DNA of 24,913 bases from a virus, in IMG/VR virus record IMGVR_UViG_3300022929_002072, positions 1 to 24,913 of that record. One strand, given 5' to 3'. Made by a program: the position numbers and the translations under genes. Below the pieces are notes generated by a model. It did not search any database and had not been told where the DNA came from. It saw only the letters and a list, made by a program, of their open reading frames with translations. Positions 5,066-21,144 of this stretch are shown here, in pieces (position 1 is the first letter of the stretch; each line of letters opens with the position of its first letter).

Positions 5066-5614
5066 CTAGTCTTTTAGTTTAACTTCTGCACCGACTGCAG
5101 GTTCGTCATTGATTGTGACATTTCGATAATAGACAACAACTTCTTGAACTTCTCGAATGTATCTTCTAAGTTCTTGCATGTTGTATGCCATGAGTTCATA
5201 ATCTTCTACTGATATAGCAAAGAATACAACATCACCGTTGTTCTTCTTCTTGACATCATCTAAAAATCTATCTAGATATGTGTATCCGTCTGGCCAATCA
5301 GGATTCTCTTTACCAAGTTTACATACTCTTACAGGTTTACCATTCTCTTTTAGTAAACCATCAGGATGATCCATCTTAGGTCTTTTACCTTCTTCATCTT
5401 TGACACAAGGATTAGTTATTTTAGCTGTAGATACTACATGCCATACTGGTTCTTTGAGATCAATATTTCTAGGCATAGTTGGTTGAATGATATCAATCTG
5501 AATAGGTTTAGAACTAACCGTTATAGGTTTAGTTCCGAATGTAGAACAACCACTAATTATTAGGGTTGATATCAGTGCTGGGATCGTCCAGCGAGTCAAG
5601 CTCTTTGCTATCAT
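5066..5614 (-). CDS. Putative outer-membrane lipoprotein, o-spanin-like
   Basis: A 182-residue protein with a lipoprotein signal: Lys4 and Arg8, a hydrophobic stretch (TIPALISTLII) and the lipobox ISGC with Cys23. After lipidation the rest would face the periplasm. The C-terminal third (EDYELMAYNMQELRRYI) is predicted helical. Its 5' end overlaps the preceding gene by 62 bases in another frame, and that gene encodes a membrane-anchored coiled-coil protein. An inner-membrane coiled-coil protein with an overlapping lipoprotein is the classic Rz/Rz1 (spanin) arrangement that disrupts the outer membrane at lysis. It is longer than most Rz1 proteins. The role is inferred from architecture; no holin or endolysin is recognised here. 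Confidence 0.65.
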   Translation of the reverse strand: MIAKSLTRWTIPALISTLIISGCSTFGTKPITVSSKPIQIDIIQPTMPRNIDLKEPVWHVVSTAKITNPCVKDEEGKRPKMDHPDGLLKENGKPVRVCKLGKENPDWPDGYTYLDRFLDDVKKKNNGDVVFFAISVEDYELMAYNMQELRRYIREVQEVVVYYRNVTINDEPAVGAEVKLKD

Positions 5615-5948
5615 TTTCTATTGCCTCAAATACGGCCTTTGTTTGATCATTGGCCCTTGTTTCAATCATACCTGGTTTAGCTATTGCTAACTTATTCAGA
5701 TTATGTCTTCTGAATATATCCAAGTAACCGTTCATCTCAGCTTCAATCTGAGCATTCTTAGAAGCTAGTTGATTCAAGGCTGCACCTTGTTTCTCATAAC
5801 TCTCTTTAATAGCAGCTATAGCTTCTTCTTGTTGTTGGATTGCTACTTCTAGTTGCATGTTATTCATTGTCAATGTCTGATTCTCTGAATATAACCACCA
5901 ACAAGCTATCCCCAGGATTGCTATTATTGCTATAAAAAACTGTTGCAT
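5553..5948 (-). CDS. Putative inner-membrane coiled-coil protein, i-spanin-like
   Basis: A 131-residue protein starting with an uncleaved-looking transmembrane helix (FFIAIIAILGIACWWLY, residues 4-20). It is followed by a long polar helix rich in Gln, Glu and Ala (about residues 27-75) that should form a coiled coil, then an acidic tail. This is the usual build of an Rz-type i-spanin. It overlaps the lipoprotein gene downstream by 62 bases, and its ATG overlaps the acyl carrier protein stop by one base (TAATG). Spanins are so diverse that gene layout is the main evidence. An unrelated membrane-tethered protein is possible. Confidence 0.62.
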   Translation of the reverse strand: MQQFFIAIIAILGIACWWLYSENQTLTMNNMQLEVAIQQQEEAIAAIKESYEKQGAALNQLASKNAQIEAEMNGYLDIFRRHNLNKLAIAKPGMIETRANDQTKAVFEAIENDSKELDSLDDPSTDINPNN

Positions 5949-6163
5949 TATGAATTGTCCTCAATATACTGTTTTAACTGTCCTACAGTATGAAGTGTCT
6001 CAGCATCATCATCTGGTATTTCGATATCAAATTCTTCTTCGATACCCATAATTACTTCTACTATATTTAGTGAGTCAGCACCCAAGTCATTTACAAAGTT
6101 TGATTCATCTTTGATCATTCCTTGATCTATCCCTAAGTTCTCTGCTATTATTTTTTCTATCAT
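5948..6163 (-). CDS. acpP: Acyl carrier protein
   Basis: A 71-residue acidic protein with the clear acyl carrier protein pattern. The phosphopantetheine site is Ser31 in [13 protein letters not shown], preceded by a helix I segment and NFVNDLGAD and followed by [12 protein letters not shown] and the closing helix. A host phosphopantetheinyl transferase would have to load it. In the cell ACP carries acyl chains for lipid and lipid A synthesis and also touches partners such as SpoT and MukB. No other fatty-acid gene is present, so its use to the phage is unknown. Candidates are lipid remodelling before lysis, suggested by the spanin-like genes next to it, or sequestering a host partner. Coupled upstream by ATGA and downstream by TAATG. 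Confidence 0.9.
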
Positions 6164-6728: not shown

Positions 6729-7233
6729 TATGACCACCCTTTCTATTGTAATCAATCGTGTCTTTTATTCTTTTCAAAACCTTTTTTCTTTTCTTTACTA
6801 CTACAGTAGATGAATCATCACCTGTACCTGCTATGTGAGGACCTGTAACTGTACCCATATCTTCTTCTACTGACTTCATAAAGTCTTGTACATCACTCAT
6901 TACAAGTGTTGATAATTGATTAACCATAGTAGTCAATACAGGTGTAGGTAATGTTAACAATACTTGAACTTGTTTTTTAGTCAAACCTTTAACTTTTTTG
7001 AGTGCTTGTTTGATGTCTTTGTTTTCTCTCAATCTAGGTTCCTTTCTATTGTAGTTTTGTGATACGACTGATAGATTCTTTTTGTCATTGTTCATCGGAT
7101 TGTTATCTTTGTGATGTACATCTTTACCTTTTGGAGCATTTACTGACCTTCGAGCTGCATTTCTAGCAGCTCTTCTCAATTTCTGCTCTGGTTTAGAATG
7201 ATAATTATCGTATTCTTTTTTATAGTTTCTCAT
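6721..7233 (-). CDS. HNH-type protein
   Basis: From the ATG at 7233 this is 170 residues: an arginine/lysine-rich N-terminus (YHSKPEQKLRRAARNAARR), then an HNH-like segment with adjacent histidines 40-41 and Asn-rich loop (GKDVHHKDNNPMNNDKKNL) followed by SVVSQNYNR. This pattern is common in phage HNH proteins, either homing-type nucleases or packaging-associated nickases. The C-terminal half is helical, then a Gly/Thr linker (GPHIAGTGDDSSTVVVK) and a basic tail, which are unusual for a homing enzyme. The frame is open to a GTG at 7284, but the usual family start (MRNYKKEYDNYH) lies at 7233, inside the end of the peroxiredoxin gene. Nuclease activity is inferred, not certain. Confidence 0.7.
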   Translation of the reverse strand: MRNYKKEYDNYHSKPEQKLRRAARNAARRSVNAPKGKDVHHKDNNPMNNDKKNLSVVSQNYNRKEPRLRENKDIKQALKKVKGLTKKQVQVLLTLPTPVLTTMVNQLSTLVMSDVQDFMKSVEEDMGTVTGPHIAGTGDDSSTVVVKKRKKVLKRIKDTIDYNRKGGHNV

Positions 7234-7693
7234 AGACATTTTCAGGAGATGAGATATCGTAAGGATCTTCGCCATGATCATCACATTTCCCTTCTTCAGC
7301 GAACATTTGTTCTACTATACCATTATTTATAACAGCAGCGTATCTCCAACTTCTCGCTCCGAATCCCAAATTGTCTTTACGAACTAACATACCTAATTTT
7401 TCTGTTAGAATACCTGAACCATCAGCTATCCATTTTACATTAGCTATATCTTGATCAGCAAACCATTTACCCATAACGAAAGCATCATTTACTGAGACAC
7501 ATATAATGTCATCTATACCTTTTGATTGAAACATATCCCACATTGCTTCATATCCTGGTAATTGTTTTGTAGAACAGGTTGGTGTGAATGCACCTGGTAA
7601 TCCAAATAGAATAACTCTCCTATTTTGAAAGTATTCAGTAGTGTCTACAGTTGGATGTGGTGTTTGTGGTAGTGTTAAATTTTTGATATCCAT
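7220..7693 (-). CDS. Type II peroxiredoxin (Prx5 family)
   Basis: A 157-residue thiol peroxidase. The active site is Cys40 in LPGAFTPTCSTKQLPGYE, with the conserved Pro/Thr and the distal Arg in GFGARSWRYAA. Cys65 in IICVSVNDAFVM lies 25 residues later, the spacing of the resolving cysteine in plant-type PrxII, so a Grx- or Trx-recycled two-Cys mechanism is likely. Cys137 is extra. It reduces H2O2 and organic peroxides in the cytoplasm. The phage glutaredoxin at 211-456 could be its reductant. It has one of the best ribosome sites here (AAAGGAG, six bases before ATG), which fits strong expression. Peroxiredoxin would protect the infected cell or the radical-based ribonucleotide reductase from oxidants. 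Family call is firm; role inferred. Confidence 0.92.
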   Translation of the reverse strand: MDIKNLTLPQTPHPTVDTTEYFQNRRVILFGLPGAFTPTCSTKQLPGYEAMWDMFQSKGIDDIICVSVNDAFVMGKWFADQDIANVKWIADGSGILTEKLGMLVRKDNLGFGARSWRYAAVINNGIVEQMFAEEGKCDDHGEDPYDISSPENVYEKL

Positions 7694-8668: not shown

Positions 8669-8682
8669 AAAAACTAGTTCAA
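8655..8682 (-). promoter_or_regulatory. Probable sigma70-type promoter, near-leaderless
   Basis: Minus strand: TTGAAC (8682-8677), a 16-base spacer, TATATA (8660-8655), then five bases and ATG ATG. The spacing equals that of the two perfect-consensus promoters in this window, and the short distance to the start codon matches those at 21.9 and 24.5 kb. The gene after it has no ribosome site, which supports a leaderless start. It lies at the boundary between the virion block and the peroxiredoxin-ACP-spanin block. The hexamers are imperfect, so confidence is moderate. Confidence 0.5.
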
Positions 8683-9069
8683 CTGAGCTTGGATCTTAAA
8701 ACTACCATGACCACTTGTCATGTAATCAATTTTCATTGACAAGTCTTCTGGTATAGTTGGTACTAAAACATGAGTTTCAGCTGGATCCATTTTTTCTCCA
8801 AATTGTGAAACAGGTAGTGTAAGTGAACCTTCACTGCCTGAAATTTCTGGTCTAGTTTCGAATGTAAGTCCTAATTGTTGTACTTTTCCTGCTAGTTGAG
8901 TTAAAGCTGCTTCAACACTCATAAATTCTTGATTAGAACAACCTTCTAACCACGCATTCACTCTTGTCTTTACATCTTCTTGATCAAGTCTATGAAAATC
9001 TGCTGGGATATCAGTTGATATCCCTCCAGACCCATTACTTTCTTTTACAAATGTTCTAAAAGATTTCAT
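8674..9069 (-). CDS. Putative head-packaged or structural protein with capsid-targeting-like N-terminus
   Basis: A 131-residue protein starting MKSFRTFVKESNGSGG. The first ten residues resemble the T4 capsid-targeting sequence MKTYQEFIAE, with Glu10 followed by Ser as a possible gp21-type cleavage point, then a Gly/Ser-rich stretch. The body has a helix (SVEAALTQLAGKVQQLGLTF) and beta segments (EGSLTLPVSQFG, THVLVPTIPEDLSMKIDYM). No enzyme signature was seen. It has a clean ribosome site (AGGA, seven bases before the ATG) and is the gene after the late-promoted SwmB-like structural gene, so late expression fits. Packaging into the head is inferred from the N-terminus only. Confidence 0.7.
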   Translation of the reverse strand: MKSFRTFVKESNGSGGISTDIPADFHRLDQEDVKTRVNAWLEGCSNQEFMSVEAALTQLAGKVQQLGLTFETRPEISGSEGSLTLPVSQFGEKMDPAETHVLVPTIPEDLSMKIDYMTSGHGSFKIQAQLN

Positions 9070-9082
9070 TATATTATCCTAA

Positions 9083-9676
9083 TTATGCTGTAACTGTTAA
9101 TGAACCAGCTGCTGTTCCAATAGCTGAACTATTAGTAATAGTAGCATTTGTTGAAGTTCCAGCATCTTTAATAGTACCAGAGTTCAAGTTCATTGCATTA
9201 GCACCGATTGTTAATACATCATCAGCATTTGTAGCTGCATCATCTGCTGCTATCGCTAGTGAGAATACAAGTTCATTAGTACCTGTACCTGAAGCGTATG
9301 CTAAGTTGTGTGGTCCACGACCTGTACCAGAACCTTCGTTTCCGTTAGTTACTGCTAAGTAAGGTGTTCCACTTCCTGTATCAACATCAACTGCTTCGTT
9401 AAATCTAGCTCTTACTGATAAAGTAAATCCATCAGATTTATCTGCAGCTGTTGTGATCCATTCGATTTCTGTTATGTCTGCTGAACCGATAGATGTTGTC
9501 AATGAACCAATGGCCACTAAAACTTCTGGTGTGGCACTTGTATTCCCATTACCAGACATTGTAGAACCTGCTTCAACTGTCCAACCTTTATCTGTAGCGT
9601 AGACTTCTTTCTTTTGTGCAGTAGTCAAATGTTTAGGTTTTGACTCGTCTGCGTCTGTTGCTCCCCATAGTGGCAT
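9083..9676 (-). CDS. Virion structural protein with SwmB-like Ig-fold domain
   Basis: A 197-residue protein. The N-terminus (MPLWGATDADESKPKHLTTA, then KKEVYATDKGWTVEAG) is of a kind I know from marine T4-like virion proteins. The C-terminal two thirds reads like one SwmB/bacterial Ig-like repeat: FTLSVRARFNEAVDV, GTPYLAVTNG, NLAYASGTGTNELVFSLAI, DDVLTIGANAMNLNSGTIKD. It is rich in Gly, Ser, Thr and Ala and has no cysteine. SwmB-like domains are found in large bacterial surface proteins, so this may be a surface-exposed capsid or tail decoration that touches the host or sugars. It has its own T4-type late promoter (TATAAATA at 9714-9721) and a GAGG ribosome site eight bases before the ATG, which suggests high late expression. 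Confidence 0.78.
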   Translation of the reverse strand: MPLWGATDADESKPKHLTTAQKKEVYATDKGWTVEAGSTMSGNGNTSATPEVLVAIGSLTTSIGSADITEIEWITTAADKSDGFTLSVRARFNEAVDVDTGSGTPYLAVTNGNEGSGTGRGPHNLAYASGTGTNELVFSLAIAADDAATNADDVLTIGANAMNLNSGTIKDAGTSTNATITNSSAIGTAAGSLTVTA

Positions 9677-9713
9677 TGTATTTTCCTCGTTTAAATAAAT
9701 TTAACTCTATATG

Positions 9714-9721
9714 TATTTATA
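9714..9721 (-). promoter_or_regulatory. T4-type late promoter
   Basis: The minus strand reads TATAAATA, the full T4 late-promoter box, 37 bases before the ATG of the SwmB-like structural gene. The box overlaps the stop codon of the gene upstream. In T4 such promoters need the gp55 sigma factor and the gp45 clamp, neither encoded here. The position just before a virion-type gene with a good ribosome site supports it. Confidence 0.7.
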
Positions 9722-10172
9722 CATTTAGAATCTTTACATACTTTTGAAAGGTCTTTTTATCCTTCTGCATGGCCTTTTGTACTTGTCCACGCTGAGCTGG
9801 TTTGACTCTTTCTAAGTTTTTGAGTATTCGTTCAGCATCTTTTTTAGATATCTTCACTTTACTCTTATCATCTAATTTAATTTCACTGCCTCCCCTTAGG
9901 TCAGCAGCACCTTTAATTTGAACAAAAACATTTCGATCAGCTGTACCTTGTTCACCTTTGTTACCTCGGTTATTAAAAGCATCTACAGCCGCTCTAGTTA
10001 TTAGTTCATCCTTAGCATCTTTGTATTTACCACCCATTTTGAGTGCTAATTTATCAATCATGCTAAGTAATTCTTTTTCAGACTTAGCTTGTCTGGTTAA
10101 TTTGTATAGAAGATTATTACCTGCTTGTGTAGGCATTCCCAAATCTGGTGCTCTCCTACCTTCATTAATCAT
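9717..10172 (-). CDS. Basic helical protein of unknown function, virion block
   Basis: The product is 151 residues from the ATG at 10172 (MINEGRRAPDLGMPTQAGNN). The frame is open to a TTG at 10193, but the ATG forms a TAATG overlap with the upstream stop, the coupling used throughout this window. It is lysine-rich and mostly helical (LLYKLTRQAKSEKELLSMID, KKDAERILKNLERVKPAQRG), with a central short segment RNVFVQIKGAADLRGGSEIK. No domain recognised. Charge and context, between a late-promoted structural gene and the large modular protein, suggest a DNA-associated internal or core protein, but this is a guess. Confidence 0.68.
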   Translation of the reverse strand: MINEGRRAPDLGMPTQAGNNLLYKLTRQAKSEKELLSMIDKLALKMGGKYKDAKDELITRAAVDAFNNRGNKGEQGTADRNVFVQIKGAADLRGGSEIKLDDKSKVKISKKDAERILKNLERVKPAQRGQVQKAMQKDKKTFQKYVKILNV

Positions 10173-10582
10173 TATTTTGCCGGATACGCCCAAGTCCCAG
10201 GTCTAAAAGGTGATGCGTAATCAGCATCCCAATCTAACTGAACATCTTGTGCTCTTGCTTTTTTATCTTTTGTCTTTTTAGCAATTTCCATAGCTACTTT
10301 ATTCATTTCTATAAATTCACCAGCTACTTCTACATCATTCTGATGCCCTATAGATATTATTGGACCATATTTTGGGTCCTTATAATACCGAGCTGTATTT
10401 CCTCCACCAGCTCTTCTTGTTAAACTTTTAGCTATTGGAAGCATTCTTTTCGCTTCTTTTTCATCTGAAAACACAATATCCATCTGTGCTATTTCATCAT
10501 CTCTTTTCAACTTTTTAAGATCCTTTTCAAGTTGTGATGTTTCAGTTATAAAATAACCTTGTCCAGGTGTTGTCCAACTCAT
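10172..10582 (-). CDS. Protein of unknown function, virion block
   Basis: A 136-residue protein, unrecognised. It begins MSWTTPGQGYFITETSQLEK, has charged helices (DLKKLKRDDEIAQMDIVFSD, EIAKKTKDKKARAQDV) and a Gly-rich turn (RRAGGGNTARYYKDPKYGP). The C-terminus (DYASPFRPGTWAYPAK) is rich in Pro and aromatics and could be a docking tail. The ribosome site is good (GGAG, six bases before the ATG). It is coupled to the basic protein gene downstream by TAATG, so the two are probably made in similar amounts. Confidence 0.68.
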   Translation of the reverse strand: MSWTTPGQGYFITETSQLEKDLKKLKRDDEIAQMDIVFSDEKEAKRMLPIAKSLTRRAGGGNTARYYKDPKYGPIISIGHQNDVEVAGEFIEMNKVAMEIAKKTKDKKARAQDVQLDWDADYASPFRPGTWAYPAK

Positions 10583-10592
10583 ATTATTCTCC

Positions 10593-11120
10593 CTATTTTG
10601 CCTTGATGTAACCCAACTTTCTCATTTTCTCACGAAAGTTAGTTCTTCTACCATCTATTTTTGTTTTTGAAGGATTAAGTTCTTCGTCTTTTGATTTTCT
10701 CTTATCACCTTCTTTAACTCGTCTTCTAGCACCATCTTGAGAAATCCATTCATCTGTTTCAGTTTTACCAGACCAGTTTTTGTCTATGTAATTATAAAAT
10801 TCTTTTTCTTTATCACCTGATAACTCAGCTGGTGATTTTACACCGAACTTTTTGAGTACTGATTGAAAGAATTTTTGATATTCTGTTTTCTCTTTTTCAG
10901 ATAACGCTTTGTAAAACTCATTATTGAATGCTTCATTAGCTAATCTCAACATTCTTTTTACTTCTGGATCATCTGATAATCCTTTTTTGATCTTTTCGAT
11001 AGCTTTGACAGCACCTGTATAGTTACCACCAACATATCTTTTATCGAATGCTATACCACCAGCCATTCTAACTAGTTTCTTTGGAAATTTTGCTTCTGTA
11101 ATTTGTCTGAATGTTTTCAT
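10593..11120 (-). CDS. Possible nested in-frame gene: capsid-targeted C-terminal module
   Basis: This is an internal start within the 729-residue gene. ATG 11120 (Met555) begins MKTFRQITEAKFPKK, the closest match in the window to T4 MKTYQEFIAEA. GAGG lies five bases before this ATG, and TTTAAATA, one mismatch from the T4 late box, lies 16 bases before it (11137-11144). Initiation here would give a separate 175-residue basic helical protein ending KMRKLGYIKAK. It may equally be the relic of an ancestral stand-alone gene now fused into the larger protein. I list it as a hypothesis. Confidence 0.35.
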   Translation of the reverse strand: MKTFRQITEAKFPKKLVRMAGGIAFDKRYVGGNYTGAVKAIEKIKKGLSDDPEVKRMLRLANEAFNNEFYKALSEKEKTEYQKFFQSVLKKFGVKSPAELSGDKEKEFYNYIDKNWSGKTETDEWISQDGARRRVKEGDKRKSKDEELNPSKTKIDGRRTNFREKMRKLGYIKAK

Positions 11121-12782
11121 ATCATCCTCATCTTCATATTTAAATGTGAATGACTTACCCGTGTGTTTATCTTTTACATTATAGGTGTTTTCACACATTT
11201 TTAGAATTGGACCTACAGCTTTCATACCATCAGGTTTTACAAATTCTATTTCTAATTCTGTTTCTAACGCTTCGTCTATTTGTGATCTAGTGTAAACAAT
11301 AGGATCCAACGGTTCATCTTCTACAACTGACTCTAATGCTAAAATCATTCTTTCTGTTTCTCTTTCATCAAATACATCATTTAGTTCTGATATATTATAT
11401 GTCAAGAAACCATTTTTACCTAGTGTTTTTTGTAATTGTTCTATTTGTAATTCTTGATCAGTAATCATACCGAAAGAATCACATGCTTCTACTATATCTT
11501 CTCTAGTAGCGTGTCTTACACCAAAACCTTCTGTCTCGATACCTAATGCTTTTGGATATGCTTGAGACTTTAATTTGAATGGTGATCTCTGTGCTGATTC
11601 TTTAGCTGATTGTAATTGTTCTGTTTGAGATTTACCTAATCTTTTTTGTCTATCTCTGAATGTTTCACCACTTTTTCCAATCGATAAGTTTCTTTCTCGT
11701 TCTTTCTTTCTTCTTTCTTGTTCTTTATCTGATTGTGCTTTTTTCTTAGCAGCATCCATAGCAGCGACATTTCTAGCTCTCTCAGCATCTCTCATTTTCT
11801 TTCTTCTGAGTTCGTCTTTTTCTCTTGGTGTTAGTTCTGAAGCTGGTTTTTTCTCTAACTCTGAATCTTCTTTCATAGCTTTAGAGATAGCTGCTCGTCT
11901 TTTCTTGAGATACTTATCAGAAGAATCTACATCACCGTCATTGTCGATATCAGCATCAGCTTTACCGACAGGATCTAATTTGTCAGCCATTAGATTTACT
12001 TTCATTGACCTACCAAGACCTCTTGGTTTAAGATTACCTGATTTTCTTTTCTTAGCAGACTCAGCTGGATTAGCTGTCATATTGTCTATCCACTTCTCTG
12101 GTGCATGTGTAATTTGATATTTAGCACCTTTCTTAAATTTAAGACCCCAAGGTTCTAAATGTTTAACTATTAAATTTCTTAAATCGTCTGTTTCAGCACC
12201 GTCCATTCCTTTTTCTACTCTTAGTAAGTCATCAAAGAAACCATCATCACCAAATATATTGTATATATTTTTAGCCATTCTCTTGGCATTATTTGGAGTT
12301 GGTTTTGATGGCATCTGTAAGAAACCTACTTGTAGATTATACAGTTTCTTATATGAATCGGGTATAGCCCATGTGCCTTCTTGAAGATTTTCTACTTCTT
12401 CATTGAGGTCATGATTAGTTTCTTCTTTCATACCCATGACTTTTTGTGCTAGTTTAACTAATGTCTGAACATTAGCTTTTTCCATTTTCTTCTTATTAGC
12501 ATCGTTTACTTTATCATATGCTTGTGTTATGACACTAGCAGTAAACATATCAACCATTACACCATTGACTTTCTTAGCACCTTTAGTTTTAACGATATCT
12601 TTTATACCATCTAAAGCTGAAGCTTCTGATAATTTTTGTTCTGCTACAACAGCTTTGTCTTTTGTATAACCCATTTTCTCAGCCTGCTGTTTGTATCTAG
12701 ATTTAGCAGGTTGTTTTTTTGTTACTTCTTCGATTGCCTTTCTCAGGTCTTTGAAGTCCGTGACTACTGTTGTATCTTTCAT
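10593..12782 (-). CDS. Large modular head/core-type protein with dockerin-like calcium loop
   Basis: A 729-residue, lysine- and glutamate-rich modular protein. Residues about 45-120 hold a module I associate with marine phage structural proteins (LSEASALDGIKDIV, VNGVMVDMFTASVITQAYD). Residues about 137-240 are a separate domain. Residues 278-289 form a perfect EF-hand/dockerin loop, D-I-D-N-D-G-D-V-D-S-S-D, inside GKADADIDNDGDVDSSDKYL. Residues about 300-400 are a long charged helix. At Met555 the sequence MKTFRQITEAKFPKK looks like a capsid-targeting N-terminus, followed by a helical module (GAVKAIEKIKKGLSDDPEVK). Motifs of the form [LI]-x-E before Ala or Gly at residues 51-54, 133-136 and 561-564 could be prohead-protease sites. 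That suggests a scaffold or internal polyprotein cut during maturation. The whole reading is inference; the ORF is certain. Confidence 0.8.
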   Translation of the reverse strand: MKDTTVVTDFKDLRKAIEEVTKKQPAKSRYKQQAEKMGYTKDKAVVAEQKLSEASALDGIKDIVKTKGAKKVNGVMVDMFTASVITQAYDKVNDANKKKMEKANVQTLVKLAQKVMGMKEETNHDLNEEVENLQEGTWAIPDSYKKLYNLQVGFLQMPSKPTPNNAKRMAKNIYNIFGDDGFFDDLLRVEKGMDGAETDDLRNLIVKHLEPWGLKFKKGAKYQITHAPEKWIDNMTANPAESAKKRKSGNLKPRGLGRSMKVNLMADKLDPVGKADADIDNDGDVDSSDKYLKKRRAAISKAMKEDSELEKKPASELTPREKDELRRKKMRDAERARNVAAMDAAKKKAQSDKEQERRKKERERNLSIGKSGETFRDRQKRLGKSQTEQLQSAKESAQRSPFKLKSQAYPKALGIETEGFGVRHATREDIVEACDSFGMITDQELQIEQLQKTLGKNGFLTYNISELNDVFDERETERMILALESVVEDEPLDPIVYTRSQIDEALETELEIEFVKPDGMKAVGPILKMCENTYNVKDKHTGKSFTFKYEDEDDMKTFRQITEAKFPKKLVRMAGGIAFDKRYVGGNYTGAVKAIEKIKKGLSDDPEVKRMLRLANEAFNNEFYKALSEKEKTEYQKFFQSVLKKFGVKSPAELSGDKEKEFYNYIDKNWSGKTETDEWISQDGARRRVKEGDKRKSKDEELNPSKTKIDGRRTNFREKMRKLGYIKAK

Positions 12783-12786
12783 TTTA

Positions 12787-13062
12787 TTAGTTTGAGTTGA
12801 TTGCTACACCAACAGCCATAACAGCTGCGTTTGCTGCGAATAATTTATCGGAAGGGTCTTTCTGAATGATGGCTTCTTGTTGACCATCAAGTGTGAATGT
12901 ACCTATATCAGTACCACCAGATTGTTCTAATGTTACTAAATGTTCTGTGCCTACAGCTGCTGTATTAAACAGTCTAACATATCTGCTTGACCCAATATTA
13001 GATGCTGCACCTGTATTTGTACCTAGTGCTGCTTCAGTTGTAATTGGTTTCCAAGGTCCCAT
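12787..13062 (-). CDS. Small virion-type protein
   Basis: A 91-residue protein (MGPWKPITTEAALGTNTGAA) rich in Gly, Ala and Thr with beta-strand pattern (SSRYVRLFNTAAVGTEHLVT, IGTFTLDGQQEAIIQKDPSD) and no Cys. I recall similar short proteins in marine phage virion clusters. The fold may be a small beta-sandwich that decorates the capsid or tail, but this is not shown. It has the most elaborate late promoter in the window (two TATAAATA-like boxes in tandem) and an AGGAG ribosome site eight bases before the ATG, which predicts very high late expression as for a high-copy virion component. Confidence 0.72.
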   Translation of the reverse strand: MGPWKPITTEAALGTNTGAASNIGSSRYVRLFNTAAVGTEHLVTLEQSGGTDIGTFTLDGQQEAIIQKDPSDKLFAANAAVMAVGVAINSN

Positions 13063-13086
13063 GGTTTTTATCTCCTAATTATAATG

Positions 13087-13102
13087 TATTTATGTATTTA
13101 TA
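13087..13102 (-). promoter_or_regulatory. Tandem T4-type late promoter boxes
   Basis: The minus strand reads TATAAATA (13102-13095) directly followed by CATAAATA (13094-13087), then AGGAG and the ATG of the small virion-type gene at 13062. The first box is the full T4 late consensus, and the second differs by one base. The doubled box may raise strength or give two start points eight bases apart. A TATAAT follows but has no matching -35, so I read this as a late and not a sigma70 promoter. Confidence 0.72.
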
Positions 13103-13107
13103 ATTCT

Positions 13108-13494
13108 CTACTCTTGAACACCATCATGTTCTCGGTGTTCGTCCATTAATTCTTGTTCTATTCTTAAAACATCACTATCTTGTTGATATAATGTTCTCCA
13201 TTCCCATATTAAAGAGTCATAAGCTGTGTTTGTTTCTCTATTAGCTGTTGGAAATGTGTCTGTTTGTTTATTTTCTGGTATTAAAAATTGATGTTTTTGT
13301 GATCCTAATTTTTGTGAATTGTCCCAATCATATTCTTTAACATTTATTGTTGGTTCAGCATCATCAAAGTTTTCTCTAACGAATCTATCTTTCATAGCTA
13401 TTGGTTCTTTGTAACATTCAATATCTATGTCTATAGCGTACGCTTCATCCATAGCGTTTCTTAAAATTGTTTCTTTATGTCTTATTATTAACAT
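13108..13494 (-). CDS. Protein of unknown function, virion block
   Basis: A 128-residue acidic protein (MLIIRHKETILRNAMDEAYA at the start). It has a middle region with aromatic turns (NVKEYDWDNSQKLGSQKHQF) and a C-terminal helix (SLIWEWRTLYQQDSDVLRIE). The composition and the WxWRxxYxxD-like pattern remind me of small tail-assembly or tail-fibre chaperone proteins, but I cannot confirm that. The ribosome site is good (AAGGA, eight bases from the ATG, in the recurring AGGATAATATA context). It sits between a putative virion protein gene upstream and a late-promoted small virion gene downstream. Confidence 0.66.
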   Translation of the reverse strand: MLIIRHKETILRNAMDEAYAIDIDIECYKEPIAMKDRFVRENFDDAEPTINVKEYDWDNSQKLGSQKHQFLIPENKQTDTFPTANRETNTAYDSLIWEWRTLYQQDSDVLRIEQELMDEHREHDGVQE

Positions 13495-13503
13495 ATATTA
13501 TCC

Positions 13504-14307
13504 TTAACAACACTCATTTATATTAGTAGTCATAAGAGATTTAATGGCTGTATAAAAATTAATTGTTCTAACTCTCTTACCTACAGGTGTAATATTAAAC
13601 CCATGACGCCACACTTTTACAAGATCAGCACCATTTGGTATACACTCACCCATAAAACTACCATAATAATTATATCCAATTTTTGTACTCGTACTTGATG
13701 TGTTACCAGATGTACCAGATAATCCTGTAGTGTTAAATGCTACAGCACCAGTGATACCACCTGCACCAATACTGTATATAGATGTAATATTTTGTGAAAC
13801 AGCAGTAGCACCTGTACCTACACCAGCTAGTCTAGCTAATTCTTGAGTACCACTAACAGAAGTGCCTTCTCTGTAATGATAATTTATACTTCCATGTGAA
13901 CCTTCGTCAGCATAGAATACAAGGTCATTACCACTTCTCTGAACCCAAACTCTAACTGAAGTTAACAAAGGTACTTGACAAGCACCTGAAACACTTGTTT
14001 GATGTTGATATGATTCAACTTCTGTATATCTAAGACTACTTGCCGAACTAAATTGAATACCGTCTTGTCCGAAAGATTTAAATTCACTTACTTCATCAGG
14101 TCCTGATGCTAAGTTCATATTATCAGCAACAGTAGCATCAGCTGTAGTTAGAGTTAAATTATCAGTCAATGTATATGTCTGTCTACTGTTCGCTGGGTCT
14201 AGTATTATTTGTTTTCTACATAAATCTGAAAGACTTAAATTACTATTAGCTAATCCTACTTCTGTAGCTATTGTACTGAAACCTATGTTACTTGTTGGTA
14301 TTGTCAT
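13504..14307 (-). CDS. Putative virion (tail/baseplate-type) protein
   Basis: A 267-residue protein. The N-terminus (MTIPTSNIGFSTIATEVG then SLSDLCRK) has the IPTS...SLSDL pattern I know from marine phage tail-associated structural proteins. The rest is Gly/Ser/Thr-rich beta sequence (TYTLTDNLTLTTADATVADN, GAGGITGAVAFNTTGLSGTS) with aromatic strands (GYNYYGSFMGECIPNGADLV), suitable for a fibre or spike. It ends in two cysteines (NINECC), unusual for a phage structural protein. Its ATG overlaps the upstream kinase-fusion stop by four bases (ATGA). A tail role is inferred from style and not from a named domain. Confidence 0.68.
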   Translation of the reverse strand: MTIPTSNIGFSTIATEVGLANSNLSLSDLCRKQIILDPANSRQTYTLTDNLTLTTADATVADNMNLASGPDEVSEFKSFGQDGIQFSSASSLRYTEVESYQHQTSVSGACQVPLLTSVRVWVQRSGNDLVFYADEGSHGSINYHYREGTSVSGTQELARLAGVGTGATAVSQNITSIYSIGAGGITGAVAFNTTGLSGTSGNTSSTSTKIGYNYYGSFMGECIPNGADLVKVWRHGFNITPVGKRVRTINFYTAIKSLMTTNINECC

Positions 14308-14672
14308 TTATTATTACCTGATCTGATTGCACCTATTCTATCTCTCTCAGCTTTCTTTGCTTTGGGTAGAAGTTTCTTTGTCAACTTAGCTATTGCTGCT
14401 TTCTTCTTGTCTAATTTTTTACCAAGTTGAACTTTTTGTGATATTGTTAACTGACTCAATGGAATACCACCTGATAATTTCATAGCTAATTTATTTCTGG
14501 CCATCATACCAGCTTTTTTCAACATATCATCAGGTCCTTTCATTCTCATTTTTTTCTTAGCAGCTGCTCTAGCTCTTTTCTTAGCTGTTCTTTTAGCTAC
14601 ACGACCTCTAGCAAGTCTTTGTTGCATTGTTAATGCCTCTTGCATTTCTATAAATTCTTTAAATGAGTCCAT
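14304..14672 (-). CDS. Possible nested in-frame gene: basic capsid-targeted core protein
   Basis: Internal ATG 14672 (Met238 of the kinase fusion) begins MDSFKEFIEMQEALTM, a capsid-targeting-like N-terminus. CATAAATA, one base from the T4 late box, lies just eight bases before it (14681-14688). Start here would give a 122-residue, strongly basic helical protein. Because the kinase and core parts look like separate proteins and the join carries promoter and targeting-like signals, separate late expression of the core module is plausible. No clear ribosome site is seen, so it would rely on a leaderless or weakly led transcript. Confidence 0.38.
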   Translation of the reverse strand: MDSFKEFIEMQEALTMQQRLARGRVAKRTAKKRARAAAKKKMRMKGPDDMLKKAGMMARNKLAMKLSGGIPLSQLTISQKVQLGKKLDKKKAAIAKLTKKLLPKAKKAERDRIGAIRSGNNK

Positions 14673-15383
14673 TATACTAATATTTATGTCTTCATTTACA
14701 CTTGAATCCATACCTCTTTTTATAGATTCAATCCATTCTAAAGCTGATGAATTTAATTTTCTTGACCATACTGTTAATTTACCTGCTACAGAAATATCTA
14801 TATTACCGCCATTGTTTTCTATCTCATGATAATCTCTATTACCTACTAATTTTCTGAGAGTTGATTTAACTTTCTGAGCTGCTTTCCAAGAGACTTCAAC
14901 TATCCTTGGTGGTATCGTTCTAGCTCTTTCATTATTTCTCATGAGAGCTACTTCTAAATTTGTTTCTATGAATATTACTTTAACATCATATCCTACTGTC
15001 TGTAATCTTTTTATAATTTTAGCTGTCTTAGCTTGATCACCAGATGTTGAATCAATAATAATACCCATTCTACCATCAATTAATGTACTTAATCTTCTAC
15101 TAGTCAAAGCCTTAGCTGCCATTCTAGCTGCTTCTCTTTCTTCTGTTTCATTAGAAGGCATCTTTAATGAAAGACCTTTCTTTTTCATTAACAGTTCAAA
15201 GAAACTATCTGAGTTTACTACCAGTAATCCTAATGTCTTTAGACCTAGTTTTTTAGCAACATAAGATTTACCACTACCAGGACCTCCAGCTAATACAACT
15301 GCTTTGAAGATACCAGGGTCATTGACACCTTCATCTAAATCTAATACTAAGTCTTCTTCTTTATAATTAAGAATCGATTCCAT
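14304..15383 (-). CDS. P-loop kinase (zeta-toxin-like) fused to a basic head-core module
   Basis: A 359-residue fusion. Residues about 25-180 are a P-loop kinase: Walker A GGPGSGKS at 33-40, Asp59 in VNSDSFF, IIIDSTSGD near 108-116 as a Walker-B-like strand, and Arg-rich lid segment (RNNERARTIPPR). The type is that of zeta toxin/AAA_33 small-molecule or nucleoside kinases; the substrate is unknown. From Met238 a different protein seems to begin (MDSFKEFIEMQEALTMQQRL), with a very basic helix (VAKRTAKKRARAAAKKKMRM) and KLTKKLLPKAKKAERDRI. I recall this module as a stand-alone marine phage protein, possibly a DNA-condensing or core protein. The gene overlaps its NMNAT-like neighbour by 17 bases, so the kinase may act on related nucleotide chemistry. 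Confidence 0.8.
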   Translation of the reverse strand: MESILNYKEEDLVLDLDEGVNDPGIFKAVVLAGGPGSGKSYVAKKLGLKTLGLLVVNSDSFFELLMKKKGLSLKMPSNETEEREAARMAAKALTSRRLSTLIDGRMGIIIDSTSGDQAKTAKIIKRLQTVGYDVKVIFIETNLEVALMRNNERARTIPPRIVEVSWKAAQKVKSTLRKLVGNRDYHEIENNGGNIDISVAGKLTVWSRKLNSSALEWIESIKRGMDSSVNEDINISIMDSFKEFIEMQEALTMQQRLARGRVAKRTAKKRARAAAKKKMRMKGPDDMLKKAGMMARNKLAMKLSGGIPLSQLTISQKVQLGKKLDKKKAAIAKLTKKLLPKAKKAERDRIGAIRSGNNK

Positions 15384-16245
15384 ATTTCTTTTTAGCCATA
15401 TTCATAGCTACTCCATGCATGATTTCATCTGCTTTGTCACCATATCGTTTAACAAAATCATCTCTTTCTTTTTTTAATTCTTTGTACATTTTTTCTTTGT
15501 ACAATAAAACTTCTTTTGGTAAGTCTTCAGCTTCTTTTATTTTTTTCACATAAGATACGACATTTTGACCTGGTGTAGCTTTCTGAGCATACTCTCTACC
15601 TTTATCTGTACCCCATTCTCCATTATAGACTTCATACATAAAGTCTTCAAAATCTTCTCTTATACCCATACCTTTTTGTACAGCTTTGTATAATTGTTTA
15701 CCGAGTCTATAGTTTTTTGGTAGTGCATCAATAAATTCTTGTTCTTGACCTAATGAAACAAACTGTCTCATTTTAGATGCAGACATACCAACATCACCAG
15801 CAGCATCAGGATCTCTTTCACCTGCTGATACTACATCAATTTTATCAAATTTATAGTAACCATGTCTAGCTTTGACACCGTTATACTTTTTAAGTAATGA
15901 ATCAAATTCTCTAATTCTATCTGAACCGACAACCATTTTAACACTTGTATATCCTTTATCATGTAAATCCGATACTACATCAAATACTGTTTTTGAATCT
16001 GACTTAGCAACTTCTACACCTCTTGGTAACATTGGATTCATAAACTTACGAATCTGACTATTTGTCAAAGGATTCTTTTTCTTGTCTGTAGTATGTGATG
16101 TGAATATCATTACATCATCACCTGATGAAACTGATTTCATTTTCTTTGCAAGTTTCATGTGTCCAACTGTCGGTGGATTAAAACGACCAAAAGTAAATGT
16201 TACTCCTTTACTTCTAGCTTCTGTTATGTCTTTAAATTTTTTCAT
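15367..16245 (-). CDS. NMNAT-like nucleotidyltransferase with capsid-targeting-like N-terminus
   Basis: A 292-residue protein. Residues 1-10 (MKKFKDITEA) look like a capsid-targeting sequence with ITE|A as possible cleavage point. Residues about 14-165 form a cytidylyltransferase-fold domain: GRFNPPTVGH at 20-29 (the T/HxGH motif), VGSDR at 106-110 and MSASKMR at 154-160 in place of the ISxTxxR motif. NMNAT and NadR enzymes, which make NAD from NMN and ATP, have this pattern, but related enzymes use other substrates. The C-terminal part (MYKELKKERDDFVKRYGDKA, HGVAMNMAKKKYGI) is helical and unrecognised. The ATG overlaps the cupin-like gene by four bases (ATGA), and the 3' end overlaps the P-loop kinase gene by 17. 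Confidence 0.85.
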   Translation of the reverse strand: MKKFKDITEARSKGVTFTFGRFNPPTVGHMKLAKKMKSVSSGDDVMIFTSHTTDKKKNPLTNSQIRKFMNPMLPRGVEVAKSDSKTVFDVVSDLHDKGYTSVKMVVGSDRIREFDSLLKKYNGVKARHGYYKFDKIDVVSAGERDPDAAGDVGMSASKMRQFVSLGQEQEFIDALPKNYRLGKQLYKAVQKGMGIREDFEDFMYEVYNGEWGTDKGREYAQKATPGQNVVSYVKKIKEAEDLPKEVLLYKEKMYKELKKERDDFVKRYGDKADEIMHGVAMNMAKKKYGIDS

Positions 16246-16511
16246 GATCTTTCTATTCGTAAGACTAAATCTGTTTTACCTCTAATTATTCTATGATACA
16301 TACCCATTGGTATCTCAAATTTATAATCATTTTTCAGTTCAAAAGGTAAATTACCATTAAACTGAAATTGCCAACCCTCACCTTCTAATACTGTTACTTT
16401 TCTATGTTCTAAATCACGATGCCAAATCAACTCTTGATCTGCAACATCTTTTGAGAATGTTCTTATCTCACCCTCATCAACATATGGTTTACCAGAAGAA
16501 ATTTCCACCAC
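16242..16511 (-). CDS. Cupin-like small protein
   Basis: An 89-residue protein that reads as a single small beta-barrel: ELIWHRDLEHRKVTVLEGEG, WQFQFNGNLPFEL, YKFEIPMGMYHRIIRG, DLVLRIE. This is the strand and turn order of a cupin, with the late PxGxxH turn kept (PMGMYH), but the usual HxH metal pair is reduced to WHRD and HR, so metal binding is doubtful. It starts with GTG at 16511, with GGGG seven bases upstream; the next codon is also GTG. The start lies inside the preceding gene (23-base overlap). Function unknown; it may be a small virion or ligand-binding protein. Confidence 0.7.
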   Translation of the reverse strand: MVEISSGKPYVDEGEIRTFSKDVADQELIWHRDLEHRKVTVLEGEGWQFQFNGNLPFELKNDYKFEIPMGMYHRIIRGKTDLVLRIERS

Positions 16512-16857
16512 CAGTTAACCCCAAATCTTTTGCATAGTATGGTAATCTACAACTCCAATATCTTGGTGTTGTTTTATCGTTTGCTGTATCACAATTATGT
16601 CTGTCGGCAAAAGCTTTTCTTCGTGCTGGGTCTTTTAATTTTACTGACAAATTAGACCCACCATCTTTAGCACCGAATGATACTTTTTTTACTTTGTCTC
16701 CATCTTTTACATAGACATAAAATTTCTTAGCACCACCTCTTTTTGGTTTGTTGATTTCTTTGTTATCATCTTCTGTAACTTCAATCATAGGTCTTTCTAA
16801 AGGTACATACTTACCTTCAAATTTACCGTAATCTATATGTTCTAGAAATGATTTCAT
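16489..16857 (-). CDS. Conserved small phage protein (RHNCD...YWSCR type)
   Basis: A 122-residue protein. It begins MKSFLEHIDYGKFEG, partly like the capsid-targeting N-termini nearby but without a clear cleavage glutamate. After a charged linker comes a compact domain: KKFYVYVKDGDKVKKVSFGA, NLSVKLKDPARRKAFADRH, NCDTANDKTTPRYWSCRL. The Cys of HNCD and of YWSCR recur in a family common in large tailed phages, often within other late proteins, and may be structural or bind metal. The function is unknown. It overlaps the genes on both sides (ATGA upstream, 23 bases downstream). Confidence 0.72.
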   Translation of the reverse strand: MKSFLEHIDYGKFEGKYVPLERPMIEVTEDDNKEINKPKRGGAKKFYVYVKDGDKVKKVSFGAKDGGSNLSVKLKDPARRKAFADRHNCDTANDKTTPRYWSCRLPYYAKDLGLTGGGNFFW

Positions 16858-17558
16858 TTTTTAGCTTTTCCTTTCATTTTGTTCTTTCTTCTTCTAGCTG
16901 CATCAGCTTTTGGACTGTCACTAAACGCTACTGCTTTGTCAAAAGCTTTTTGTGATACTGCACCTTTTGGATTCATTTTCTCACCAGAACCTCTTTTAAT
17001 TCTTTCTCTTTTCTTTCTGATATTATCCCAAAGACTTTCAGCTTTTCTTTTACCGTCTTTATCATACTTACCAGATTTCTTTTTAGCAATAGCTATTGCT
17101 GCTTGTTGTGCTGGTGATACAGCTTCTCCTCTGACTTTAGCTGCTAAGTCACTATCGGCTTTACCCCAAGTACCTTTACCTTTTGTAATAAAAGAATTTA
17201 CTCTAGCCAATCCCCATTGGACAGCTGTAGTTCCTGGTCTATGTCCTGTTTGCCATGCTTTGACACCTCTTTTATATACTTGTTTTAATACACCCAATGG
17301 CATACCTGACTTCTTAGCTTTATTTGATAATGCTTTGTCTGGATTACTTTCACCAAACATCTTTTTAAACTTCAAAGTATGTTTACTTGGTTTAGTCTTA
17401 GCATCATCATCACCAGGAGCAGGTTTAGTACTACCTTTAGCAAAGTGTTTTGCTCTAGCTTCTTTTTCTTTCTTACTCAATCCTTTGTAATACTTTTTAG
17501 GTTGTGTCCCAGGTTCGTCTTTTACTTGTGGGTCTTGTGGTTGTTTTCTCTCTTTCAT
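16854..17558 (-). CDS. Basic multi-module protein (DUF5824/DUF5872/DUF6321-like)
   Basis: A 234-residue, very basic protein that looks like three short phage modules in a row. Residues about 20-70 (PKKYYKGLSKKEKEARAKHF, TKPSKHTLKFKKMF) match what I recall as DUF5824. Residues about 80-145 (KSGMPLGVLKQVYKRGVKAW, TGHRPGTTAVQWGLARVNSF) match DUF5872. The region near SLWDNIRKKRERIKRGSGEK resembles DUF6321. The domain names are from memory and need a search. None has a known activity; the positive charge suggests DNA or nucleoprotein binding. It is coupled by TAATG to the ligase-like gene upstream and by ATGA to the gene downstream, so it is part of the overlapping packaged-protein candidate cluster. 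Confidence 0.75.
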   Translation of the reverse strand: MKERKQPQDPQVKDEPGTQPKKYYKGLSKKEKEARAKHFAKGSTKPAPGDDDAKTKPSKHTLKFKKMFGESNPDKALSNKAKKSGMPLGVLKQVYKRGVKAWQTGHRPGTTAVQWGLARVNSFITKGKGTWGKADSDLAAKVRGEAVSPAQQAAIAIAKKKSGKYDKDGKRKAESLWDNIRKKRERIKRGSGEKMNPKGAVSQKAFDKAVAFSDSPKADAARRRKNKMKGKAKK

Positions 17559-18769
17559 TACTTGTCCCAGTTTTTAGCTACAGTAAAGTTATTAAAACTG
17601 AATTCCATTTTGTCTACAATTTTAACAGCTTCACCTGTTCTGTCAATAGCAACATAACCTTCTGGTGCTACTACTTTAAGTCCATTATCAACTTTAACGA
17701 ATGTCTTTGCTAGACCCTTTGCTTGGTCCATTTTCTTAACAATCATTAACTTTGCTTCAATCAAAAATCTCATAAAATCTACGACTTGTTCTAATGTTTT
17801 AAGTGAACTATTGATCACTCTTATATGTTCTCTTAACTTAGATTGTTGTACAGGACTATCTGATTTGTTCTTCTTCCACCAATTTTGAAAGTGAACTAGA
17901 TATCCTTTTACAGCATCTTTACCTTTCGGTAATTTTTTTCCTTCTCTTGTATATGTATTTAGATAAGTTTTGAACCCAGCTCCAGCAGCTGATGTACCTA
18001 AACTATCTTGCCATTTTAAAAACTTATTGAATTTACCTGAGTTTATTCTATGAAATTGTTTACCTGCACCTGACAATAATTTTGTAACTTTTACAGTATC
18101 TTTTGCTGTAAATGTAGCTGCTCCTGTTACATCTCTATATGTTGCATCATCTTGCCATACAGTAGATGATGAACCCGGTAACTTAGCTCCAAACGATGCT
18201 TTTAAATCTTGTATTGTATTACCTTTATATGTTGTATGCCATACAATACCCACTTTAGCTTTTTTTATTTGTCTACCAATCTCTGAATCAGATGGTACAG
18301 CATACAAAATAGTATTTGGTTGAAATGTAATGTGTTTAACACCATCGATTGTCATTGTTGATAAATCGTCTGTAAACATTAAATCACCTTGAAGTATTTC
18401 TTTCATACCCAATTTACTGAATTCATCTAAACAGACTTTCATCTTTTTGTTTAACTCACCATCAGTATCTGCATCGATATCTTCGTATGTATGATAATAA
18501 GGTTGTGGATCTTGAGTTTTTCTAAACAAAGCTTTCTTAGCTACAAAGAATTTACCTGTCTCAGGATGAGGACCAGCAAACACTGCTGGAGCTCCGTCCC
18601 ACTTGACTGTAACATTTAGTTTAGATTTACCACCACCAGCAAACATATCTCTTAATGATTGAAGAAACTCTATTGCACTTCGACCACCAGCAATACCAAA
18701 ATTTAGAATTTCATCTTCTAGATGTTCTAAATGTAAATTTTTACCTGCTGCTTCTGTTAGATATTCCAT
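17558..18769 (-). CDS. Nucleotidyltransferase (RNA/DNA ligase)-like protein, DUF6267-type
   Basis: The product is 403 residues from the ATG at 18769 (MEYLTEAAGKNLHLEHLEDE); a TTG at 18790 is possible, but the ATG forms TAATG with the upstream stop. I recall this family as DUF6267. It has motifs in the order of covalent nucleotidyltransferases: KWDG at 56-59 (motif I KxDG), a strand ending LQGDLMF at 127-132 (motif III-like), APEGYVAI at 368-375 (motif IV) and AVKIVDKMEF at 381-390 (motif V-like). T4 RNA ligase 1 has a KxDG and an EGYV in these roles. The large insert between motifs is unusual. The N-terminus YLTE|A fits the capsid-targeting/cleavage pattern. Ligase or capping-like activity is a prediction. 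Confidence 0.72.
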   Translation of the reverse strand: MEYLTEAAGKNLHLEHLEDEILNFGIAGGRSAIEFLQSLRDMFAGGGKSKLNVTVKWDGAPAVFAGPHPETGKFFVAKKALFRKTQDPQPYYHTYEDIDADTDGELNKKMKVCLDEFSKLGMKEILQGDLMFTDDLSTMTIDGVKHITFQPNTILYAVPSDSEIGRQIKKAKVGIVWHTTYKGNTIQDLKASFGAKLPGSSSTVWQDDATYRDVTGAATFTAKDTVKVTKLLSGAGKQFHRINSGKFNKFLKWQDSLGTSAAGAGFKTYLNTYTREGKKLPKGKDAVKGYLVHFQNWWKKNKSDSPVQQSKLREHIRVINSSLKTLEQVVDFMRFLIEAKLMIVKKMDQAKGLAKTFVKVDNGLKVVAPEGYVAIDRTGEAVKIVDKMEFSFNNFTVAKNWDK

Positions 18770-21144
18770 TACTTCAATGAACCTTTCCAATTCTTAGTTG
18801 TAGTATTTATTTCAAACTTGGTAGCGAAACCCGATCCAGAACTTGTAGCAATACCTACAACATTCCATTGTGGTTCAGGTGGCATACCATCTAGACTTTC
18901 GACTAATAATACATTGATACTATTATACTCTTTACCTGATACTTTCATTATCTTAATGACTAATACAGGAAAATCATTATACTCTTTACCGATCTTTGCT
19001 AAGTCTTCTACTTTTTTCTTTTCAAAATCATCTCTTGTACCCATGTGTTTTAGTTTGTTACCACCATACACAATTACTAGAGGTAAAGCTGTGTTACCGA
19101 ATCTTGCTTCACCTTCAAATTCAGCTGCTAATGCAAACAATGATGTAGATAAATTTTCATAACTACTCATTTTACTTTCTACATATTTTAATATACCTTT
19201 GATATAATTCATACCAGACCAATTAGAAGTCAATTTGAATACAGTATCCATTGATGTGCCTAAACCTAATACAACTTCATCACCTTCTTTTACAGAATCT
19301 AGTTCTCTTAATTTTTTAAGATCACTTGATGATATTTTGACATCACCACCCTCAATCACAACTATAGGTTCTATTGGTCTATCTTTTACAGCAAATTGAG
19401 AGTTTAGTTTTTTAATGAGTTTTTTGTTTTCTTGATGTAGTTTATTGATTGGATCACCTGTCATAGCTTTATTAAATGCTTTGATTTCTCTAACTAAAGG
19501 TTTATTAGCTTTAATAGTTCTAGTACCTTCTGTTATGACACCACCTTGTGATTGTAATTCTTTGACTATTGAATTAGCAGATTTACCAATTTTATTTGAT
19601 TTAACTTGTTTATCAGTAAATGATTTTGCTGCTTGATTTGCTGACTTAGCAAGTTTTGAGAAAACACCTTTTATTTTCTTGTATAAAAAGTCTACACCTT
19701 TAGATACTTTAGCACCCAACTTAGCTAGAACAGCAGTTCCTTTATTAAATATATCACTTATACCTTCTGAAATAAGTTCAGCTTCAGTATCCCATTCTAA
19801 ATGATTCTGTTGAATTGTTTGAATTTTAGTAGGCATATTACCAGCTATACCTGTCATAAATCTAGCATTAGCAAACATACCGACTTTACCAATTCTAGCT
19901 GCTCCGACTTTAGCATCTTTTTTTAATGATACTTGATAAAATTCTACAACCGATTTATCATTAGAATCTAATAAAGTTATTTTACTTTTAGTATCTGTTT
20001 TTATTCTTCTATGTTGTGCTTGTAAATCTAGACCTTTCATTTCTTTCATTATTCTGAATAAATCTGATCTAGTACCTTTTGATATCATCACAGCATCTGC
20101 AGTATTTACTTTATCTGGATTTGGTACTTCAAATATTTCAGGTGCGTTATCATAATAATCACCAACACTATTATGAATAAAATCTTTAAAAGATCCTAGT
20201 TGTCTCATTGAACCACCTAATTCTTTACAGTAGTCTAACATTATTTTCTCACCATTATCAACATTAGATGTAAATTCTTCTATCCAAGATTTACATATTG
20301 GTGAAAATTCTTGATGTGATAGTATCGACAACCCTTTACCCATACCTTCAACAATTGCACAACCCTCATAAATTTGTGTTCTGGCTGTAGGTGACTTTGG
20401 TAATGTATCATTAATTGATATGAATACATCTTCTTCTTTGAGTTCGAATGATTCTAATTTTAGATCAGGTTCCATACCTTTTTTAGATAGATCATATAGA
20501 TGATCAGCTAATCTGATACCAAATTCTGTATCAGTAGGATAATGAGCACCTGCTATTTGTCTACTATGACCAATCCTTTTACCTATATCTAGAATGTTCT
20601 TTCTATGTTCTAATGGTGCTTCATCAGCAACTAATAATGATACTAATCTACCTTGAGTAGCATGTCCCGAAGGATATGAAGGTGTACCTGCTGTTTTAAG
20701 TGGGAATGTATTTAATGGTAGACCTAACTCTTTTGCTAATGCTTTTGGTCTAGGTCTATTGTAATGTCTTTTGAGTGCTAGTATAATAGGATTCGATTGA
20801 TCTCGTAATGATTTTATTCGTGTGAAATCTACTTCAATACCATATTCATCTAAGTATTCTTTGAATGGTCTAATAACTTTGATGTCATATTCAACCATTT
20901 CATCTTCCCATTGAGTTCTAAACTGACCAAGAGAAATAAGATGTTGTATTTCTTTCTTAGTCTTTTCAGATGAATTTTTAGGAAAAGGATATTGTTGCCA
21001 ATCTTCTAGATTGATATGTTTGAATTCTGAATAATCTTTTTTAAGTTGTTTTAATCTATCAGCTGATAGCTTTACACTATGACCTAGTTTGTCTAACTTA
21101 CTTTCTTTTGATTCTTCTTGGATTATTTCTGCAAATGATTTCAT
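18769..21144 (-). CDS. Giant PAP2-type phosphatase fusion with capsid-targeting-like N-terminus
   Basis: A 791-residue multidomain protein. It begins MKSFAEIIQEESKES, a capsid-targeting-like sequence with IIQE|E. Residues about 115-220 are a PAP2/haloperoxidase-type acid phosphatase with all catalytic motifs: K125-x6-R132-P133, PSGH at 158-161 and SRQIAGAHYPTD with Arg195, His201 and Asp205. There are no clear membrane helices, so it is a soluble class A-like enzyme. Residues about 330-440 (NTADAVMISKGTRSDLFRIM, VEFYQVSLKKDAKVGAARIG) form a second, unidentified domain that could be nuclease-like. The C-terminal 300 residues (LALAAEFEGEARFG style helices, PLVIVYGGNKLKHM strands) are unrecognised. 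It follows a late-type box at 21151-21158. Substrate unknown: lipid phosphate, nucleotide or polyphosphate are candidates. Confidence 0.78.
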   Translation of the reverse strand: MKSFAEIIQEESKESKLDKLGHSVKLSADRLKQLKKDYSEFKHINLEDWQQYPFPKNSSEKTKKEIQHLISLGQFRTQWEDEMVEYDIKVIRPFKEYLDEYGIEVDFTRIKSLRDQSNPIILALKRHYNRPRPKALAKELGLPLNTFPLKTAGTPSYPSGHATQGRLVSLLVADEAPLEHRKNILDIGKRIGHSRQIAGAHYPTDTEFGIRLADHLYDLSKKGMEPDLKLESFELKEEDVFISINDTLPKSPTARTQIYEGCAIVEGMGKGLSILSHQEFSPICKSWIEEFTSNVDNGEKIMLDYCKELGGSMRQLGSFKDFIHNSVGDYYDNAPEIFEVPNPDKVNTADAVMISKGTRSDLFRIMKEMKGLDLQAQHRRIKTDTKSKITLLDSNDKSVVEFYQVSLKKDAKVGAARIGKVGMFANARFMTGIAGNMPTKIQTIQQNHLEWDTEAELISEGISDIFNKGTAVLAKLGAKVSKGVDFLYKKIKGVFSKLAKSANQAAKSFTDKQVKSNKIGKSANSIVKELQSQGGVITEGTRTIKANKPLVREIKAFNKAMTGDPINKLHQENKKLIKKLNSQFAVKDRPIEPIVVIEGGDVKISSSDLKKLRELDSVKEGDEVVLGLGTSMDTVFKLTSNWSGMNYIKGILKYVESKMSSYENLSTSLFALAAEFEGEARFGNTALPLVIVYGGNKLKHMGTRDDFEKKKVEDLAKIGKEYNDFPVLVIKIMKVSGKEYNSINVLLVESLDGMPPEPQWNVVGIATSSGSGFATKFEINTTTKNWKGSLK

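Follow-up and report, generated by a model that had tools for sequence, protein, structure and literature searches.

A candidate in-frame nested gene with a T4-type capsid-targeting-like tag inside a modular gene of a T4-like marine phage

In-frame nested head genes are known from phage lambda, in which the protease-scaffold pair C/Nu3 yields a shorter product from an internal start that shares the stop codon of the outer gene. Internal starts of this kind are annotated in genes 17 and 21 of T4 (NC_000866), where the shorter product likewise has the same frame and the same stop. The T4 internal proteins IPI and IPIII carry, at the head of their own genes, a 10-residue tag that is cut by gp21. 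According to an excerpt of PMC9026906, a 10-residue stretch of IPIII is enough for packaging, targeting rests mainly on residues 4 and 7 and processing on residues 8 and 10, and L/I-x-E is the sequence after which gp21 cuts. The N-termini in RefSeq NC_000866 read MKTFKEFTSTTTPVSTITEA for IPI and MKTYQEFIAEA for IPIII, and the [L/I]xE rule places their cuts, marked here and below by a slash, at MKTFKEFTSTTTPVSTITE/A and MKTYQEFIAE/A.

We analyzed a 24,913-base virus record (the window), a fragment from a T4-like marine phage, parts of which align with DNA of Synechococcus and Methylophilales phages at 60 to 80% identity. Inside a 729-residue reading frame of the window lies a putative nested gene, the product of which would begin with a T4-type tag (Table 1). 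Like IPI and IPIII, this product has an MKT[FY] start, a hydrophobic residue 7, and a predicted [L/I]xE/A cut at residue 9 to 10; an S77 protease occurs in related records. Unlike theirs, the tag is nested in a long modular gene, has its own conserved ribosome site, and is associated with packaging by prediction. As in T4 genes 17 and 21, a shorter product would share frame and stop with the outer one, but the outer gene is neither a terminase nor a protease gene, the nested product bears its own targeting tag, and the start-plus-tag header stays while the surrounding modules are exchanged. In contrast to the lambda pair, the outer gene matched no protease family in Pfam, PHROGs, or NCBIfam, and a Pfam search with the 729-residue protein returned no family above the cut-off. 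Neighboring genes of the window belong to the module-shuffled T4-like families phrog_3041, phrog_455, DUF6267, and DUF5824, and in other phages they are divided or joined in other ways; in contrast to the nested site, the column scan showed no conserved internal start in these families. What is new here is the combination of an in-frame nested gene with a T4-type capsid-targeting tag, each kind being known separately.

Table 1. Positions in the window of the outer reading frame, the candidate nested gene, and associated features
Feature	Position	Strand	Remark
729-residue modular ORF (outer frame)	10593..12782	minus	homologues 672-993 residues stop-to-stop
Candidate nested in-frame product, 175 residues + stop	10593..11120	minus	same frame and stop as outer gene
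Putative internal start codon ATG	11118..11120	minus	Met555 of the 729-residue ORF
Shine-Dalgarno-like GAGG	11126..11129	minus	5 nt 5' of internal ATG
T4-type capsid-targeting-like tag MKTFRQITE/A	11091..11120	minus	predicted gp21-type cut after ITE
Module A, FPKKL...GGIAFDKRY...LSDDPEV	10929..11087	minus	nested-product residues 12-64; common to many other marine phage proteins
Module B, YQKFF...KEFYNYIDKNW	10758..10892	minus	nested-product residues 77-121; phrog_28651 region
Conserved C-terminal segment RRTNFREKMRKLGYIK of nested product	10602..10649	minus	
Conserved module EIEFVKPDG...TGKSFTFKY	11136..11270	minus	directly 5' of tag
TTTAAATA	11137..11144	minus	earlier called promoter-like; judged chance plus coding constraint
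91-residue gene upstream	12787..13062	minus	stop 4 nt before full-length start

Met555 opens the peptide MKTFRQITEAKFPKKL. A sequence-only reading of the window had described MKTFRQITEA at this position as nearly the T4 sequence, and comparison with the N-termini of IPI and IPIII bears this out. Both MKTFRQITEA and MKTFNQVISEA, which occurs in relatives, fit the T4-type capsid-targeting motif; among the family sequences listed, residue 4 is Phe or Tyr, and Ile, Val, or Leu stands at residue 7. Two of the 34 window proteins match the tight pattern M[KR][TS][FY].{1,6}[ILV].E[AGS], at the nested site and at the N-terminus of 8674-9069, versus 0.0000 matches per window in residue-shuffled proteins. 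Among the literature matches listed, no title concerned capsid-targeting tags in marine T4-like phages, and no relative was found among 272 pattern stretches from the genome collection.

To assess conservation, we used a family of 20 distinct IMG/VR-contig homologues with the motif internal, made up of the window and 19 of 25 collected loci. Two loci were left out as a cut fragment of the L136 type (L145) and a near-copy of L149 with the TTA codon described below (L150), and four as remote and tagless at that place (L039, L172, L179, and L193). The pattern used to locate the site accepted M, V, or L as the first residue and F/Y as the fourth; residues 1 and 4 of the tag were therefore partly selected for, whereas the codon choice and the Shine-Dalgarno sequence were not. 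The codon at the Met555 position is GTG in 15/20 members, ATG in 4/20, and TTA in 1/20, corresponding by parsimony to four changes on the tree. GTG accounts for only 23/838 of the other valine codons of the 20 members and, in 26 other valine-rich columns, for 11/306. Third-base changes were found on the tree in 25/26 of these columns versus none among the 15 valines at the site.

The GAGG five bases 5' of the ATG is present as previously noted (11129-11126), and a Shine-Dalgarno sequence (≤ -5 kcal/mol, calculated with an assumed anti-Shine-Dalgarno sequence that may not be the host's) precedes the site in 19/20 members, or 19/21 when L150 is counted in. Depending on the member, it is spelled GAG-GAx (Glu-Glu/Asp), GGG-GAA (Gly-Glu), or GGA-GAA (Gly-Glu). 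These codons encode different amino acids across the members, indicating conservation of the nucleotides rather than of the protein sequence. Among the 591 family columns scanned, the Met555 column alone has a start codon with a Shine-Dalgarno sequence in >55% of members. In a wider scan, 24 window genes were entered, of which 4 had too few relatives, and the 4,748 columns of the resulting 20 gene families gave two matches, the Met555 site and a genuine gene start. The latter, the true start of gene 9083-9676, scored 29/29 and serves as a positive control, and the Met555 site scored 16/18 in the scan's own family build (distinct members with coverage of ≥50% and a closed 3' end).

The pattern might be an accident of codons or of sampling, if GAGG with ATG or GTG comes about readily in acidic linkers and the relatives are too few or too alike. 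GAGG-N(3-9)-ATG is indeed no commoner in the window than chance would have it (9 seen versus 14.95 expected) and is not unusual alone; the Met555 site stands above chance because it is conserved in relatives, not because GAGG and ATG occur together. The family also includes near-copies (L099/L138/L139/L140), but it forms 15 clusters at 80% identity, with a median pairwise identity of 53%. The codons that spell the Shine-Dalgarno sequence are also in the minority in the family genes, where GAG makes up 245/1,491 Glu codons and GGG 28/1,095 Gly codons. Considering these figures and the uniqueness of the column in both scans, we regard an accident as extremely improbable.

The internal header might instead be a relic of a once separate gene that is no longer used. 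A stand-alone tagged version of the gene does exist in a related cassette, and modular fusion is seen elsewhere in the cassette of the window (see below). However, third bases have largely turned over elsewhere (third-base identity of 0.36 to 0.67 at conserved GAPTV codons in the 16 pairs listed), yet the start and the Shine-Dalgarno sequence persist in 19/20 members. This is not how an unused relic behaves, and we consider this explanation very unlikely. The proposal that internal initiation has been retained thus agrees with the comparison: the conserved start and Shine-Dalgarno sequence, the unique column, and the GTG bias together provide good support for a putative internal translation start at 11120 that is under selection.

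The member with TTA belongs to the L149/L150 lineage (the same as L020/L021), which has no Shine-Dalgarno sequence, yet the peptide LKSYAELTEGKF is retained. The peptide can therefore matter without the start, and the motif might act as a peptide only, for targeting or as a gp21-type cut site in a polyprotein, with no internal initiation. Consistent with this, [L/I]xE lies within 17 residues of the tag start in 18/20 members, the TTA member included (at residue 10 in 11, residue 9 in 5, and residue 13 in 2), and remote relatives of the nested modules keep a cut-like site at the module border without a tag or start codon. In Melnitz and C48C1, for example, module A follows LDE/G or VQE/S with no tag. 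A role confined to the peptide, however, leaves unexplained why all 15 valines at the site are GTG and why the Shine-Dalgarno sequence is kept despite changing amino acids; we judge it unlikely. The long ORF of L149 also has an insert near residue 700, ENSWTKPGQG, that resembles MSWTTPGQG, the first residues of the window's next gene (10172-10582), which may point to recombination at the junction.

Cleavage itself is predicted from the motif. The strict [L/I]xE after the tag is missing in 2/20 members; followed by A/G/S, it is present in 16/20 and missing in 4/20. Across the 20 long proteins, [LI]xE[AGS] occurs 94 times versus 35 expected from shuffled sequences and the reversed motif 11 times versus 37 expected, although these counts are drawn from related, non-independent sequences and the control motif [LI]xK[AGS] is likewise above expectation (104 versus 60). 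An S77 prohead protease was found above the cut-off in three of eight related records (Melnitz, C48C1, and G003), with one weak match below the cut-off in G001; the 24.9-kb fragment contains no prohead protease gene. The predicted nested product is likely to be a packaged protein.

The sequence-only reading had also placed TTTAAATA 16 bases upstream as a promoter-like signal. The position is correct (11144-11137), but the promoter assignment is not supported. TTTAAATA occurs four times in the window versus 3.68 expected, which is chance level, and in 4/20 members the match is broken by AAG as the Lys codon. A late promoter at this place would make a separate short message, and TATAAATA or a one-mismatch form of it does recur at -21 to -33 in 13/20 members. 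This recurrence, however, follows from conservation of the peptide T-[FY]-K-Y, and L149 and L151 lack TATAAATA. The late-promoter reading of TTTAAATA was rejected, and separate internal transcription is highly improbable.

The same reading had seen such signals together twice in the window. The other nested motif that we could identify, MDSFKEF, lies in 14304-15383, an ORF in which a Zeta-toxin/AAA-type kinase domain is joined to a module rich in Arg/Lys. Initiation is not supported there: relatives have Met or Ile at this motif with no Shine-Dalgarno sequence, and the column scan of the family gave no conserved internal start. A second internal start was therefore rejected, and the motif serves as a negative control. 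The ORF terminates at the tag-like peptide in several relatives, whereas Melnitz (4586-4978 of L006), L046, L054, and L055 encode the C-terminal module in a gene of its own that has a tag-like start.

The suggestion of modular fusion, by contrast, was borne out, since modules have been exchanged or inserted on either side of the tag and a stand-alone tagged gene exists. Among the distinct ORFs in the loci collected, 89 have module A only, 50 have module B only, and 41 have both. Inserts lie 5' of the header in L010/L151 and 3' in L152-L154, and the header is intact. L260 encodes module A in a 244-residue gene of its own, which starts with MKIFKEIREKYRSKFPPALV and has GGAG before its ATG. An in-frame stop lies ~30 nt upstream of this ATG, so that the comparison proposed earlier, for a stop codon just before the motif in relatives, gave a positive result. 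Family and solved-structure matches assigned no function to the modules of the nested product. A search of the nested-product sequence against solved structures gave nothing better than an E value of 0.26, and its AlphaFold2 model is poor (pLDDT of 50.1, pTM of 0.36).

The surroundings of the gene have a similar character. Starts of the form M[KRE]x[FY] occur in 5/15 genes of 8674-21144 (one from TTG) versus 0/19 genes outside, and at 5/212 internal methionines of the window. By inference, 8674-21144 as a whole resembles a packaged-protein cassette. L260 is a related cassette, with tag-like starts in 6/14 genes. In the window, the 791-residue product of 18769-21144 contains a PAP2-type phosphatase domain and has the tag-like start MKSFAEIIQEES, and the cytidylyltransferase, DUF5824, and DUF6267 genes of 15367-18790 are separate, their counterparts being fused in phrog_3041 and phrog_455.

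We consider it likely that the internal start at 11120 is functional and would give a tagged 175-residue protein that is targeted to the prohead and cut by a gp21-type protease, with the full-length form made by coupling. Ribosomes would bind the GAGG and begin at the ATG, or in most relatives at a GTG that is read as fMet, and the tag MKTFRQITE/A would lead the short protein into the prohead core. The gp21-type (S77) prohead protease would then remove the tag after ITE, leaving ~166 residues of small modules, with a presumed function, in the head. The full-length polyprotein, which has further [L/I]xE/[A/G/S] sites, would enter the prohead too and be cut at the same place.

The start of the full-length frame has no Shine-Dalgarno sequence (+2.0 kcal/mol). 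It lies 1 to 8 nt from the stop of the preceding gene in 16/20 members; for the other 4 members, among them the window with its 4 nt, the script returned no value. The missing Shine-Dalgarno sequence and the short distance to the stop of the 91-residue gene suggest that the full-length form is made by translational coupling at a lower level and the short form by independent initiation. The products of the two starts would then differ in amount, and a single gene is probably the source of two packaged proteins. More tentatively, the ribosome site, start, and capsid tag might form an evolutionary translation-and-packaging header around which modules are inserted, with protease-cut polyproteins supplying mixed injected modules at two dosages.

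If the internal start is used as proposed, a packaged protein is overlooked when genes are called in T4-like marine phages, and the tag would let one predict which uncharacterized genes are head-loaded and injected. T4-type phages may then swap packaged proteins by moving modules around a fixed start-and-tag header in one gene. Elsewhere in the window, by our own reading, 5066-5948 contains an overlapping pair that resembles inner and outer spanins, 5948-6163 is an acyl-carrier-protein-like gene, and 7220-7693 is a peroxiredoxin-like gene.
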